NCBI GenBank assembly: GCA_025360645.1
Contig: JANYBT010000124.1
Location: 1 to 37,236, forward strand
Length of the DNA: 37,236 bases
Source: Acidobacteriaceae bacterium
Lineage (GTDB): Bacteria; Acidobacteriota; Terriglobia; Terriglobales; Acidobacteriaceae
Reading direction: 5' to 3'
Shown: one piece after another, positions 17,433-26,347 of the stretch
Layout of the letters: the number at the start of each line of letters is the position of its first letter
How positions within the stretch are numbered: the stretch's first letter is position 1
The notes under the pieces: generated by a model
Told to the model about the DNA's origin: nothing
What the model saw: the letters and a program-made list of their open reading frames with translations, nothing else
The model's database searches: none
Made by a program: the position numbers and the translations under genes

Positions 17433-17686
17433 GGTGCACCGCTCTTCCCGGTGACCACTTCCATCCCTGGTGCGCACAATATCTGGCAACTGCGGCAGTG
17501 CGTGTGTCCGTTGATCATCACACGGCATTCGAAGCAAATGCCCATCCCGCACAGCACGCCGCGCGCTTCGCCACTGACCGAGGTGCGACAGACATCTCCG
17601 GCCATCGTGACGGCCACCGCCACCGTGGCGCCCGCCGGCACCATGATGGCTCGACCGTTGACTTGGATAGAGATTTCTTCAGACAT
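17429..17686 (-). CDS. Small (2Fe-2S) ferredoxin-like subunit, HcnA-like
   Basis: An 85-residue electron-transfer subunit. The start is ATG at 17686 ([22 protein letters not shown]), which gives the standard beta-grasp beginning and overlaps the upstream oxidase gene by eight bases. Cluster ligands are visible as C46, C51 and C54 (RGVLCGMGICFEC) plus C67 (CRSC), the Fer2_4/HcnA arrangement. Three further cysteines (C33, C64, C71) are extra. With the flavoprotein genes on either side it makes the HcnABC-like set used in several bacteria as D-hydroxyproline dehydrogenase. It overlaps the next gene by GTGA. HcnABC proper makes cyanide from glycine, but the operon context argues against that here. 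Confidence 0.88.
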   Translation of the reverse strand: MSEEISIQVNGRAIMVPAGATVAVAVTMAGDVCRTSVSGEARGVLCGMGICFECRVMINGHTHCRSCQILCAPGMEVVTGKSGAP

Positions 17687-18800
17687 GGGATTCCGTGAAA
17701 CTGCGCGATGGCAGGTAGGGTTGAATCGCAATCTCAGATGGACGTCCCGCAATCTGGTCCACCAACAACCGCGCGGTCGCAAGAGACGTAGTGATGCCCA
17801 GGCCTTCGTGGCCGGTTGCGAGAAACAAGCCGGGCGACTCCGGCCAGGGACCGATGAGCGGCAGCTTGTCGGGAGTGGCGGCGCGGAAACCCGTCCAGGC
17901 TCGAATGGACGATAGCGGGCCAATCCCGGGCATGAAGGCGCATGCGCGCTCCAACATCCGCTGCAGGATGTCGTGATCTATATTCTTGCTCTCATTGTCA
18001 TATTGTCGCGACGACCCGATGAGCAGCTGCCCCGTCCGCCGCGGCTGCACATTGAACGCCACTGAATCGCTGGTCACCGAATGCGCGCTCTTCAAGTATC
18101 CCAACTCGACCAACTGGTGACGCACAAATTCTGGATACCGGTCTGTGATCAGCAGGTGGCCCTTGCGCTTCCGAATTTTCACTCCCGCCGTCAACTCTGA
18201 AGCCCACGCTCCCGCGGCATTCACCGTGACGCCGGCCGCGATAACCGTGCCCTCAGCCAGCTGCAAGTTCCCCGCTTCAAGTTTTGCCACGGTGCCGGAA
18301 ATCAAGGTCGCCCCCGCGTCCCGGGCTCGTTTCCAAAAGTACAGCGCGGCGCACGGCGGATAGACCACAGCATCTTCCGGGGCCAGCAACCCTCCCGCCA
18401 GACCCAGCCGCAGATTGGGTTCGGCTTCACGCAGGGAATGCTGGTCGAGGATTTCGGTGCGCACACCACGAGCCGCGTAGTACTCGTGCTTGCGCCGCAC
18501 TTCGGCCATTTCGTCATCGTCGGCCGCCACCCAGATGGTCCCGGTGGGCTCGAACTCCACCTCGGAAGGAAATTCGGCACTCATCTCATGCCACAGCCGC
18601 TGCGAGAACCGGGTAAGAGCGAACTGAGCCGCGGAGTCGTCCATGACTACGATGTGCCCCATTCCCGCCGCGGTTGCGCCGCTGCCCACGAGCTCGCGCT
18701 CGACCAATGCCACGCTCATGCCGGCGCGCGCACATTCCGCCGCGCACGCCGCCCCCACAATACCGCCACCGGCAATGGCTACATCGAACGTTCGATTCAC
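17679..18800 (-). CDS. D-hydroxyproline dehydrogenase, HcnC/DAO-like FAD subunit
   Basis: A 373-residue D-amino acid oxidase-fold flavoprotein with the FAD motif [21 protein letters not shown] near the N-terminus, split by no insertion, and the C-terminal DAO signature [27 protein letters not shown]. It should bind the amino acid and reduce FAD, passing electrons to the ferredoxin-like subunit and the second flavoprotein. The alternative reading, sarcosine or glycine oxidation, is less likely because a hydroxyproline epimerase lies immediately upstream. The start is GTG at 18800, overlapping the epimerase stop codon (GTGA). Confidence 0.88.
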
Positions 18801-19756
18801 TGCGGAATGCCCATGCAGAAGGGGTCGCGAGGATCCAAAATCAAGTCCGCCTCGGCGGTCACAAAGGCCGAGCCAGTGATGCTGGGGTAAATTTTCCCTT
18901 TGCGGACCGACACGCTACCTTCAAACACGCTGCCGACAATGCTCTCCTGCCGCCACACCTCGCCTTCGCGCAACTTGCCATCGGCGTACAAGCAGGCCAT
19001 CTTCGCGCTAGTACCGGTGCCGCAGGGGGAGCGGTCATAGGCCTGCCCCGGACACAACACAAAATTCTTGCTGTCCACGCCCGCGATCTCCGATGGCGCG
19101 AACAGTTCGATGTGGTCAATCTCTTGCCCGCCTTCGCCGGTGACGCCATTCGCAGTCAACGCCAGGCGCACCGCCCAGGTGAAGTCGGTCAAAGCCTCCA
19201 CGTTCTTGAACTTCAGTTCAAGTCCGCCGCGCGCCTCAGGCTCCCGCACCAGAAAAAACCAGTTTCCGCCCCACGCCACGTCGCCCGTGACCTGGCCATA
19301 CCCCGGCACTTGCAACGCCACTCCAGCCCGCAGCCGATAACTGGCAATGTTGGTGACGGTCACTCGCCCATTACCAAGCAACATCGCAGTGACGGTGCCG
19401 ACGGGCGTCTCGATCTTGTGCTCGCCCGGTCCAATTCTTCCCATGTAAGCCAGCGTCGCCACCAGGCCGATCGTGCCATGGCCGCACATCCCCAGGTAGT
19501 CCACGTTGTTAAAGAAAATCACCCCGGCGGCACAGTTGGGATCGACCGGGTCGCACAACAACGCGGCAACCATCACGTCCGAACCCCTGGGCTCGTTGAC
19601 CACCGCCCGCCGGAAGTCATCATGCTCACGACGGAATCTTTGCAGCCGTTCGGTCAGAGGCCCGCGACCTAGGTCCGGGCCTCCGTTCACCACCAGGCGA
19701 GTGGGTTCGCCCCCGGTGTGGGAGTCAATCACATGCACTTTCTTCACAATTTCCAT
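18797..19756 (-). CDS. 4-hydroxyproline 2-epimerase (proline racemase family)
   Basis: This enzyme interconverts trans-4-hydroxy-L-proline and cis-4-hydroxy-D-proline, the entry step of the operon. Two catalytic cysteines are present, C91 in [10 protein letters not shown] and C245 in [12 protein letters not shown]. Having both indicates an epimerase or racemase rather than the related trans-3-hydroxyproline dehydratase, which lacks one. The opening [16 protein letters not shown] is typical. I prefer the ATG at 19756 (319 aa), where the family normally starts; an in-frame ATG at 19801 would add fifteen atypical residues. It is the first gene of the operon. No transporter or regulator adjoins it; the 185 bases to the divergent lipoprotein gene should hold the promoter, but I see no clear consensus. 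Confidence 0.9.
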
Positions 19757-19941
19757 GAATTCAGCACCGCGCGTCCTATTTCGAGGCCAGCCCAACATCA
19801 TACCGAAAGAGTCTCAGTGCGGTGGTTTTCGCAGCGCGGATTCGCGAGTGCCGATTGACAGCGCCTTCATCGCCATGAAAGCATGACAGTAATTGGTCTC
19901 CACCGTTTCGCTCTCGCCTGATTTCGTCAAAAGAGGATCCC

Positions 19942-21609: not shown

Positions 21610-22296
21610 ATGGCTTCTGAACCACATCCCGAACTCGACCTCCTCTCCCTGGGGGATTGGGATCCGCCACTGTGGCGGTCGCTGATCGGCAACCTGCGGG
21701 ATAATCTTGCGCCCGAGAAATTGCCTGCGTTGCAACTGACTTCGCGCCCGATCGAGGTGGGAATGCTCATCGGCGATCGGCTGGCCGTACCCTGGTACCG
21801 CACCATCTTTGGCGGACTTAGCGACGTCATCTCGCCCGAGGTTCTGCCGCCTCTACAACTCGAATCGAATCCCATCGATGTGGGAGAGTTGATCACCGAC
21901 CAGTTGAGCCGGATGTGGTGGACTTCCCTGCTGCGCAATCTGGCGGACCGCGTCGCTCCCGAGCGTCAGCTTCCCCTGGAGTTGACTTCGCCGCCGATCG
22001 CCAACATCCTCCCCGCGGCGTGGCTGCAATTGCCGAGTTGGTCCTCGGTCATCTCCACGCCCAAAGTCTTTTATCCCGACAAGATTCCTGAGCCGCACCC
22101 TGCCGGATGGTCTGCTCCGGTCGCGGTGACGCCAGTCGTGGTCGAACCCAGCCCGCTGGTTCTGGACTATGTGCAGATGATGGCGCGCGATGTGGGCCGG
22201 GACCTGCGCCGTTCCCGATGGCGTGCTCGCATCTACATTGGCATCGCTGCACTGCAAGCCTTGTTCCTGGTGGCGGGCATCTTCTGGCCGAGGTGA
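21610..22296 (+). CDS. Unrecognised tail-anchored protein with three 41-residue repeats
   Basis: I do not recognise this 228-residue protein. Residues 22-62, 63-103 and 104-144 are three repeats of exactly 41 residues sharing N-L-x-D-x-[LIV]-[AS]-P-E-x-L-P-x-[LE]-L-x-S-x-P-I and ending in tryptophan. A proline-rich stretch (about 150-185) follows, then a basic segment (RDLRRSRWRAR) and one C-terminal hydrophobic helix, IYIGIAALQALFLVAGIFW (208-226). There is no signal peptide, so the repeats should face the cytoplasm with a tail anchor. The ribosome site is weak. It stands alone between the lipoprotein gene and the converging E2 gene. No function can be assigned. Confidence 0.8.
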   Translation: MASEPHPELDLLSLGDWDPPLWRSLIGNLRDNLAPEKLPALQLTSRPIEVGMLIGDRLAVPWYRTIFGGLSDVISPEVLPPLQLESNPIDVGELITDQLSRMWWTSLLRNLADRVAPERQLPLELTSPPIANILPAAWLQLPSWSSVISTPKVFYPDKIPEPHPAGWSAPVAVTPVVVEPSPLVLDYVQMMARDVGRDLRRSRWRARIYIGIAALQALFLVAGIFWPR

Positions 22297-23774: not shown

Positions 23775-24083
23775 TTAAACCCTCTGCTGGTGGGGCGAAT
23801 CGCTCATGACGGACGCCGCCGGCGCTCCGGCCTCCTCCACCCGCAACACCGCTCCAGCTGGCAAATAGCTCTTCCGCCGGAACCAGTCTTCCATCGCCGC
23901 CTTGAGTTCTTCCAGTGGCACGTGCGCCCCAATCTCCATACGCCCATCCGCCACCGGCAAGGTGTCGTCAAATACGCTGGCATTGGTGAAATTGCGCATC
24001 GAAAAACTGTCGAGCCATTTCAGCAAGCACGCCTGCCTCACCCCGCCTTGCTCGTACTCGACCCGAAGCTTCCGCGCAAACAT
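23775..24083 (-). CDS. Small hypothetical protein
   Basis: A 102-residue soluble protein I do not recognise. It begins MFARKLRVEYEQGGVRQACL and ends in an A/S-rich tail. The ATG at 24083 is chosen because GAGGAG lies three bases upstream; the frame is open much further back, but that part overlaps the opposite-strand YeaQ gene and lacks sensible composition. The central part contains alternating charged and hydrophobic residues and a likely C-terminal helix (PLEELKAAMEDWFRRKSYLP). There is no signal peptide and no cysteine motif (one Cys). It precedes the E2 gene on the same strand, but that gene seems to have its own promoter. Confidence 0.7.
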   Translation of the reverse strand: MFARKLRVEYEQGGVRQACLLKWLDSFSMRNFTNASVFDDTLPVADGRMEIGAHVPLEELKAAMEDWFRRKSYLPAGAVLRVEEAGAPAASVMSDSPHQQRV

Positions 24084-24112
24084 ACTCCTCGATTTAACCA
24101 CAGAATCGCGGC

Positions 24113-24142
24113 TTGACACCGGGCCTAGCCTGCGCCTAATCT
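24113..24142 (+). promoter_or_regulatory. Sigma70-type promoter for the YeaQ-like gene
   Basis: TTGACA (24113-24118) and TAATCT (24137-24142) are separated by 18 bases, about 50 bases before the start at 24195. The -35 is a perfect consensus. It is located between divergent genes, so the direction fits only the forward gene. Confidence 0.55.
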
Positions 24143-24194
24143 TCCCGCCTAAGCTAAAAACTCTGCTGTTCCATACACTAACGAGGAGGCGTAT

Positions 24195-24443
24195 ATGAAT
24201 TGGTTGCTCTGGATTGTGGCAGGCCTGATCGCAGGATGGGCGACAGGGAAGATCATGAAGGGCTCCGGCTACGGAGTCGTGGGCGACATCATTTTGGGTA
24301 TTCTCGGCGGCGTTATGGGCGGCTGGGTTCTCGGCCTCCTCAACCCGAGTCTGGCCGGAGGCGGGTTCATTTATAGTGTTCTGGTCGCCATCGTTGGCGC
24401 GGTCATTCTGGTGGCCCTGGTCAGGGCAATCAAGAAAGTCTAG
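24195..24443 (+). CDS. GlsB/YeaQ/YmgE-family stress-response membrane protein
   Basis: An 82-residue protein of the transglycosylase-associated (Transgly_assoc) family. Three hydrophobic helices are visible: residues 3-18 (LLWIVAGLIAGWATG), 28-47 (VVGDIILGILGGVMGGWVLG) and 56-78 (GGFIYSVLVAIVGAVILVALV). They are rich in glycine, as usual for the family, and the protein ends in a basic RAIKKV. GAGGAGG precedes the start. Members are often induced by stress, but the molecular function is not established. It is a single gene with its own promoter and terminator. Confidence 0.9.
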   Translation: MNWLLWIVAGLIAGWATGKIMKGSGYGVVGDIILGILGGVMGGWVLGLLNPSLAGGGFIYSVLVAIVGAVILVALVRAIKKV

Positions 24444-24453
24444 TTCGCCGAAC

Positions 24454-24486
24454 AAAAAACCAGGGCGACTCCGCCCTGGTTTTTTC
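24454..24486. terminator. Bidirectional terminator between yeaQ-like gene and pckG
   Basis: CCAGGGCG and CGCCCTGG form an 8-bp stem around ACTC, flanked by AAAAAA and TTTTTT that extend the stem and supply T runs on both strands. It lies between the converging ends of the small membrane protein gene (24443) and pckG (24518). Confidence 0.92.
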
Positions 24487-24517
24487 ACCAACCCTTCATA
24501 CCTATTTCGCCCAATCC

Positions 24518-26347
24518 CTATTTCGCCGTCTCCAGCCGATGAATCAATTTTTCCACTTCCTGATTCAGCCCCGCCGGCAAACGGTTTCCGAACTGCGCGA
24601 AGTGTTCCTTGATCAGCGGTGCCTCCGCACGCCAACCATCCAGATCGACTTCCAGCAACTTCCGCACTGACGCCGCCGGAATGTTGAGACCCGCGGTGTC
24701 AAGATCTTCGGCCTTAGGCAACCGCCCAATCGGCGTCTCCACGGCTTGCGCTTTTCCGTCGCAGCGCTCGAAAATCCATTTCAAGACGCGGCTATTCTCG
24801 CCGTATCCCGGCCACAGAAACTTGCCCTGCTCGTCGGTCCGGAACCAGTTCACGTAGTAAATCTTGGGCAGGTTTGCCCCTGGCGTGGCGCCAATCGCCA
24901 AATAATGCGCGAAGTAATCGCCCATGTTGTAACCGCAGAAGGGCAGCATTGCCATGGGATCGCGACGCAACTGGCCCACTTTGCCCGCCGCCGCTGCCGT
25001 GGTCTCGCTGCTCGCCGTCGCTCCCAGGAAGGTTCCGTGCTGCCAGTCGAACGACTCGGTCACCAGCGGGACAATCCCCGCCCGTCGTCCGCCAAACAGA
25101 ATGGCGTCGATGGGCACGCCTTTAGGATCTTCCCACTCCGTGGCGATCACCGGACACTGCTTTGCAGGAGTGGTAAACCGCGCGTTGGGATGCGCCGCCT
25201 TCCTCCCGGTTTCCGGGGTCCACGGACGCCGCAGCCAGTCCATCAATTGCGCCGGCTTTTCCTTGGTCATGCCTTCCCACCAGATGTCGCCGTCCGGCGT
25301 CATGGCGCAGTTGGTGAAGATCGTGTTCCGGGTAGCCGTCAACATGGCATTGCGGTTCGAGGCCATGCTGGTGCCCGGCGCCACTCCAAAAAATCCGTAT
25401 TCAGGATTGATGGCGTACAGCCGTCCGTCTGCTCCAAACTTCATCCAGGCGATGTCGTCCCCGACCGTCTCCACCTTCCATCCTGGAATAGTGGGAATCA
25501 GCATGGCCAAATTGGTTTTGCCGCAGGCCGAGGGAAACGCTCCCGTCATGTACTTCACCCGGCCTTCGGGATTGGTCAGCTTCAGGATGAGCATGTGCTC
25601 CGCCATCCAGCCTTCATCCCGTGCCTGCACCGAAGCAATCCGCAGCGCGTGGCATTTTTTACCAAGCAGTGCATTTCCGCCGTACCCCGAACCGTAGGAC
25701 CAGATCTCGCGGGTTTCCGGGAAGTGGCAAATGTACTTTTGCTCGGAATTGCACGGCCAGGTGGAATCCTGTTCGTTCGGACCCAGCGGCGCACCAATCG
25801 AGTGCAGGCCTTTCACGAACTCGCCTTCGGTCCCCAGCACATCCAGCACGCGCGTTCCCACCCGCGACATGATGTGCATGTTGGCGACGACATAGGCTGA
25901 ATCGGTAATCTCCACGCCGATCTTGGCGATCGGAGAACCGATCGGACCCATGCTGTACGGAATCACGTACATGGTGCGTCCCACCATCGCTCCGGTATAG
26001 AGCTTGGCGAGCTTTTCCTTCATCTTACGCGGATCTTCCCAGTTGTTGGTCGGCCCAGCGTCTTCCTTCCTGGCCGAGCAAATGTAGGTCCGATCTTCCA
26101 CCCGCGCCACATCGGCCGGGTTCGACCTTACCAGGATGCTGTTGGACCGCTTCTCGGGGTTGATGGGAATGGCCACCCCCGACAGGATCATCAGTTGCAG
26201 CATGGCTTGGTATTCCGCAGGCGAGCCGTCGCACCAGTGGACGCGGTCGGGTCGGCACATCTGCGCCACTTCCTCCACCCACTTCGCCAGCCTGGAGTTC
26301 TTGCCTTCACTGCTGGTGGTTTCTACTTCCACGGCAACACTGGACAT
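24518..26347 (-). CDS. pckG: Phosphoenolpyruvate carboxykinase (GTP)
   Basis: PEPCK converts oxaloacetate and GTP to PEP, CO2 and GDP, the first committed step of gluconeogenesis. The 609 residues match the GTP-dependent family rather than the ATP form (about 530). Visible motifs include the N-terminal region [10 protein letters not shown], the P-loop [14 protein letters not shown] with the reactive cysteine characteristic of the GTP type, the metal-binding region [22 protein letters not shown], and NWEDPKG-like motifs near FGGRR. GAGG lies just before the ATG at 26347. The gene is monocistronic, with a bidirectional terminator downstream. Confidence 0.96.

Follow-up and report, generated by a model that had tools for sequence, protein, structure and literature searches.

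What kind of protein is encoded at positions 21610–22296, and what might it do at the membrane to which it appears to be tied? The locus lies in a 37,236-nucleotide stretch of DNA, here called the window, and the protein is one of uncultured soil acidobacteria. The open reading frame is on the plus strand, starts with ATG, has no internal stops and specifies 228 residues; taken with its homologues, it marks a whole gene for a short three-box protein. A gene whose product has Ig-like matches precedes it, and a gene for 2-oxoacid dehydrogenase E2, on the opposite strand, follows. A sigma-70 scan gave no promoter for the gene, and the two overlapping terminator-like matches of a terminator scan form one minus-strand hairpin immediately beyond the point where the convergent gene downstream ends. 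Elsewhere in the window, genes for an FAD-dependent oxidoreductase (DAO) and a proline racemase stand side by side at 17682–19801 (−) by Pfam, a pair that may belong to a gene cluster for hydroxyproline breakdown, and an 82-residue Transgly_assoc gene (PF04226) at 24195–24443 lies opposite an ORF at 23778–24635 that has no Pfam match.

The protein is dominated by its repeat array. Following an ELDLL-type leader picked out by eye (residues 1–16, 21610–21657), three boxes occupy residues 17–57 (21658–21780), 58–98 (21781–21903) and 99–139 (21904–22026), all on the plus strand, and a profile derived from TonB proteins recovers them with i-E values of 1.4e-15, 3.2e-10 and 1.5e-9, respectively, at a database size set to 10,000. 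Aligned with itself at an offset of 41 residues, the protein scores 130 against a mean of −84 for 10,000 shuffles (sd 21, maximum 7), and the next-best offset among those tried, 10–60, scores −41. Units 1 and 2 share 20 of 41 residues, units 2 and 3 share 12, and units 1 and 3 share 15. An earlier note on this DNA had spoken of three exact 41-residue repeats; the period is indeed exact, but the sequence is not. The D-x-[LIV]-[AS]-P-E core that it described is present in all three units, with the L-P pair of unit 3 displaced by one residue, and the tryptophan that it assigned to each unit recurs at 62, 103 and 144. The window protein conforms in three domains to the consensus WxSLxxNLxDxxxPEKLPPLxLTSxPV of the TonB-derived profile. 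The array ends in a truncated fourth unit of WSSVISTPKVFYP type, W144–D156 (22039–22077, +), which was recognised by conservation, its likeness to a box being judged by eye; W144, S145 and P151 are identical in all 51 rows of the family alignment. Box 2 is the most conserved of the boxes, with W62, R64, F67, P76, L82, L84, S86, G92, E93, L94 and D97 present in 51/51 rows.

Beyond the array come a variable Pro-rich linker delimited by alignment and dN (residues 157–190, 22078–22179, +), a basic juxtamembrane segment with R201 and R205 in 51/51 rows (residues 194–207, 22189–22230, +) and a membrane helix supported by hydropathy, AlphaFold and alignment (residues 208–226, 22231–22287, +). The best 19-residue hydropathy window starts at 208 with a mean KD of 2.1, and both AlphaFold models place a long helix at 182–225, so that the linker, basic patch and single C-terminal membrane helix of the earlier note are borne out. 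Two residues follow the predicted end of the membrane helix, and 12 follow Q216. Hydropathy and model agree on a single membrane helix; its orientation is read from the basic residues alone. By the positive-inside rule, the basic flank of a membrane helix faces the cytoplasm. Since the repeats lie on the basic-patch side of the C-terminal helix, they are predicted to be cytoplasmic and tethered at the inner membrane, as had been proposed.

The two AlphaFold models, built from 17 and 45 sequences, are of low confidence, with pLDDT values of 61 and 67 and pTM values of 0.25 and 0.27. Model 2 has one 13-residue helix per unit (21–33, 62–74 and 103–115), exactly 41 residues apart, separated by mostly extended or unassigned segments; in model 1, unit helices are seen in units 1 and 3 only (21–33 and 103–115). 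With helices at this spacing and mostly extended stretches between them, the three-unit array looks, as modelled, like three linear docking segments rather than a globular repeat domain.

To establish that this is a real protein, we turned to its relatives. A search of named genome contigs returned 55 loci, of which 51 (L066–L116), all from metagenome-assembled Acidobacteriota, belong to the three-box family; L117–L120 were not counted in it, and L118 and L120 were read as box-carrying TonB proteins, L118 being a two-box TonB of Edaphobacter aggregans. The alignment of 51 rows consists of the window protein and 50 loci, including one long form (L114), leaving 50 short rows, 49 of them homologues from named acidobacterial contigs; L080, which has three boxes and a tail of the short-family type, is absent from it. 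The 41-residue spacing of the boxes, found by pattern, is kept across the set. With the TonB-derived profile, 50 of the 51 proteins show three domains and one shows two. The L105 ORF shows two boxes, and its assembly has N in box 1. The stop codon falls 11–14 residues past position 216 in 50/50 short rows (12 residues in 42), and residue 216 itself is evenly split, with 25 Gln and 25 Glu. Across the 40 lowest-dS pairs of 78, which share rows, dN/dS is 0.06–0.26, and the boxes evolve more slowly than the linker, whose dN is higher. Given homologues with a common spacing and stop position, together with purifying selection, the short protein is a real protein under purifying selection.

Its distribution is patchy. 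In the window's taxonomic family, three-box matches occur in at least 59 of 398 genomes and at least 26 of 79 genera, counted as profile-match rows among the matches listed and not each read for three boxes; 58 of the at least 59 genomes have frames of 208–314 residues. One genome, G577, carries two short three-box genes (G577:C86 and G577:C61). In a sample of 396 genomes from the phylum, with 18 first-look candidates scored per genome, the box matched in 47, all of the window's class and 45 of its family.

Direct searches gave the family no name. At E up to 10, nothing in Pfam, NCBIfam or the PDB sequences matches the window protein, and the family is therefore unnamed in these collections; nor does the box profile match anything in the PDB, and NCBIfam gives no match at E up to 1 for three further short members. 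Among 17 aligned rows, only the long one has TonB matches at that threshold. A Tox-MPTase5 match of one row (E 0.11) was taken as chance. In the literature searched, by titles and abstract openings, we found no description of the box or of the three-box protein.

The origin of the repeat emerged from comparison with the host's own genome. Residues 4–51 of the window protein match the N-terminus of a TonB_C protein, C131 (345-residue frame), at 52% identity and E 3.7e-6, one genome being searched. C131 has one box, a membrane helix with the S-x3-H motif, a Gly/Pro-rich stretch and then TonB_C; TonB proteins of relatives have one, two, three or four boxes immediately before the membrane helix, and TonB_C was found by Pfam in 33/33 of the box TonB proteins scanned. 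In several single-box TonB proteins, ELHLL or ELNLL stretches like the window leader precede the box, as judged by eye. A profile pooled from the boxes of the short family matches 33/33 of these TonB proteins, the worst at E 1.1e-8, and 0/693 decoys (reversed or shuffled sequences). Profiles of boxes 1, 2 and 3 taken singly match 33, 31 and 29 of the 33 at E < 1e-3; a single decoy is matched, by the box 1 profile at E 0.07. As the 33 came in through box searches, this cross-matching speaks for consistency, not frequency. They were drawn from 46 loci, 37 of them with ORFs and the other nine known by profile scan only; L127 was dropped for a masked stretch, and L125, L145 and L147 because they repeat, or nearly repeat, other loci. 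The box ORFs in the collected loci, deduplicated by exact sequence only, comprise 44 with TonB_C and 57 of the three-box family, and no third kind. One box profile, A1, mixes TonB and short-family boxes, so its scans of the host genome, of the 396-genome phylum sample and of a 60-genome co-occurrence set are not independent tests of homology; the window-to-genome match and the group-against-group profiles are. At the level of sequence, these tests establish the repeat unit as homologous to the cytoplasmic juxtamembrane box of Terriglobia TonB proteins. The earlier note's view that no family has this build is not supported, the box being that of TonB proteins and the tail resembling another TonB/TolA-like family; its suggestion of an undescribed family holds for the collections searched. 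Repeat number, whose variation it had also raised, is three in the short family (50/51 proteins) and one to four in the TonB proteins.

The tail points to a second relative. A profile of residues 190–228 of the short family, the long fusion excluded, matches 8/10 TonB-like proteins of the type found in the lipid A cluster, at E ≤ 0.032 (best 6.4e-7), and none of the 33 box TonBs or 210 decoys; its other matches are a second copy of the host genome's member and an antisense ORF at L113 (E 0.33). The likeness spans some 20 residues, the host's own protein is reached at E 0.032 and two of the ten are missed, so we say that the tail segment resembles, and is probably related to, that of the TolA/TonB-like protein of the lipid A cluster. 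The host member, C72 (L187:7539–8636), lies in the order fabZ, lpxA, lpxI, oxidoreductase, C72, miaA; Pfam identifies fabZ, lpxA and lpxI, and the oxidoreductase and miaA genes are presumed to be such, having been named by sight. C72 matches PF13103 TonB_2 at 39.3 bits and reaches 34.6 bits against the NCBIfam model tolA_full, whose cut-off is 59.45. A mixed profile of the C72-family periplasmic part and three boxes matches 382/398 genomes of the taxonomic family, and many of the matches listed span only the periplasmic part.

One genome joins the two. In G004 (L018, also L054 and L114), a 541-residue long form carries three boxes, a linker, a basic segment, an S-x3-H helix and a periplasmic part of the C72 family, which is 51–58% identical to C72-family proteins of nine other genomes and 45% identical to the separate paralogue of the same genome, itself placed between oxidoreductase and miaA genes. 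TonB_C scores 24.0 bits in this protein against a cut-off of 24.6. A tree built on the three-box region nests the long form, whose branch is flagged as long, within the short clade and next to nine short rows, with support of 84/87 at the nearest fork and 96/80 and 98/95 at two wider ones. With the long form nested among short ones, the armless architecture most probably came first in the three-box family, and the fusion would have arisen later. Proteins found fused in nature are classically taken to hint at joint action of their parts; here there is a single such event.

Box homology, tail likeness and the G004 fusion together lead us to regard the short protein as a probable armless derivative of TonB/TolA-type proteins, and we propose, at a probability of a little under one half, that it serves as a three-site membrane platform that clusters or titrates a cytoplasmic partner of the TonB box. 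Each box would form a short amphipathic helix and an extended LPPLxLTSxP segment, together a putative docking site, and what docks there would be a cytoplasmic or membrane-surface partner of the TonB proteins. One helix would tether the array at the inner membrane; a periplasmic arm and a C-terminal domain are absent. Buried Gln/Glu residues drive helix self-association, and the short protein perhaps self-associates in this way. Three sites displayed at the membrane would cluster or titrate the partner and thereby tune the number of engaged TonB-type transducers, with an effect that might be positive, as a scaffold, or negative, as a competitor. The scaffold role that the earlier note suggested is likewise an inference. 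Docking at the inner face of the membrane would be the simplest reading of a box that is kept in TonB and multiplied in a protein without outer-membrane reach. The three boxes differ, box 2 having invariant residues of its own, and this speaks against a single site present in three equivalent copies. Gene neighbours compared across subclades yielded no partner of the box.

Could the armless protein instead be a decoy, occupying the TonB/TolA site on ExbB/TolQ with its TonB-type membrane helix and so limiting the motors with a true transducer? The relationship of its tail to a TolA/TonB-like protein and the arm and S-x3-H of the G004 fusion would fit. In E. coli TonB, the Ser and His of S-x3-H make up a contact hub with TM1 of ExbB/TolQ (PMC12905483). 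S-x3-H, however, is absent from 50/50 short rows, which also have no His in the tail stretch examined and carry Gln/Glu, at residue 216, one residue past the His position. With these residues missing, it is doubtful that the short protein engages the motor as TonB normally does. A decoy would, moreover, leave three cytoplasmic boxes of fixed number unexplained, and we consider it unlikely.

The boxes might also act on lipid alone. Amphipathic box helices lying in the plane of the inner leaflet could shape or organise the membrane with no protein partner, and the box of TonB would then merely keep its cytoplasmic tail on the membrane. The helices are rich in Trp and Leu, with mean moments of 0.50–0.51 for the three short-family boxes and 0.59 for 30 TonB boxes, 1.3–2.3 sd above shuffles of the same residues. 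Their mean net charge is low, though, at 0 to +1.3, and many lipid-binding helices are not of such low net charge. Conservation also runs well past the helix (LPPLxLTSxP, G-E-L), and lipids have no need of a fixed spacing. Both the surface device and the corresponding role for the TonB box therefore seem to us improbable.

If, on the other hand, the box was borrowed and its tie to TonB lost, the short protein would be a scaffold for another pathway, such as signalling or lipid A assembly. Some subclades do have neighbours that would fit. A PilZ gene (Pfam) stands beside 16/51 loci compared, a DUF3592-like gene (DUF3592 below cut-off) beside 16/51 and a match to what we take, by sight, to be a PAS-type kinase beside 20/51, two of them at about 30% identity, nearly all of these on the opposite strand. 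A STAS gene (Pfam) lies 21–352 bases downstream in nine loci, seven of which also have a gene 21–26 bases upstream, and lpxD (Pfam) lies at most 716 bases downstream in five loci and at 6 kb in a sixth. But these neighbours vary by subclade, the PilZ/PAS group is on the opposite strand and the window locus has none of PilZ, DUF3592-like, PAS kinase, STAS or lpxD genes. No gene is common to the subclades in the neighbourhoods of 20 loci and the window or of 55 loci and the window, so the search for co-occurring genes that the earlier note had suggested brought out no general neighbour; we hold this alternative to be quite unlikely. A ferritin gene beside the host's own box TonB was not seen at the other 48 loci, most with 1.5 kb of flank. 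In the 60-genome set, 18/18 genomes with the three-box protein also have a separate TonB-length box ORF; 35/42 genomes without it have a box match too, so this co-occurrence is not evidence by itself (one-sided hypergeometric about 0.07 with kinship ignored; consistent, not significant).

That the gene is a degenerate remnant, a TonB gene minus its periplasmic part on the way to being lost, would suit the missing working parts of TonB and the patchy occurrence (at least 59/398 genomes) but is nearly excluded by purifying selection, a fixed stop, invariant residues and a spread over at least 26 genera, and the nesting of the long form in the short clade argues against recent truncation of the long form as the source of the short one.

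As a rule, TonB has a short cytoplasmic end. Parts of three published accounts give it no role (PMC12204202, PMC12905483 and PMC9008036). Here, it is a conserved, countable module, present one to four times in TonB and three times in an armless protein. Such a module, an armless array and one fusion to an arm make a testable case for cytoplasmic input to TonB/TolA machines, and they suggest that the TonB machinery has a cytoplasmic side not yet described, in a phylum that abounds in soils and has received little study. We speculate, tentatively and with more doubt than confidence, that Terriglobia have a cytoplasmic control layer on TonB, in which a partner reads the box and an armless three-box hub determines how much of that partner is available or where it sits. 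If true, energy transfer to the outer membrane would be regulated from the cytoplasm.

Set beside known systems, the window protein has three TonB-like counterparts in its own genome. Like the box TonBs (PF03544 TonB_C, TIGR01352), it has a juxtamembrane box and then one membrane helix. Those proteins, however, carry one to four boxes, with 12/18 measured spacings at 38 residues, against three boxes at 41 here, and continue into a Gly/Pro-rich periplasmic arm and TonB_C, both of which the window protein lacks. A His in the helix region is found in 27/33 box TonBs and S-x3-H in 13/33, whereas the window protein has no His there. Because only 13/33 carry it, S-x3-H is a weak criterion for a TonB in this group; box TonBs of some genera (L125, L132, L143 and similar) are without it, some even without His, and still have the box and the Gly-rich arm. 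As TonB_C, the arm and S-x3-H were each tested and found absent, we conclude that the window protein is not a TonB. With proteins of the C72 type it shares a basic juxtamembrane segment and membrane helix, but not their periplasmic arm and C-terminal domain; C72 of the host genome has no box match. A third TonB-like protein, C140 (543 aa; L034:1483–3111, −), may carry half a box, in degenerate form, ahead of its helix (11.8 bits, E 0.86, not significant alone) and differs from the window protein in its long periplasmic region, which includes TonB_C (61.4 bits). In seven relatives, frames of 557–659 residues give weak box matches (E 3e-5 to 6e-4) that might be of the C140 type. Measured against all three, what is new, as far as sequence comparison tells, is an armless, multi-box derivative of TonB-type proteins.
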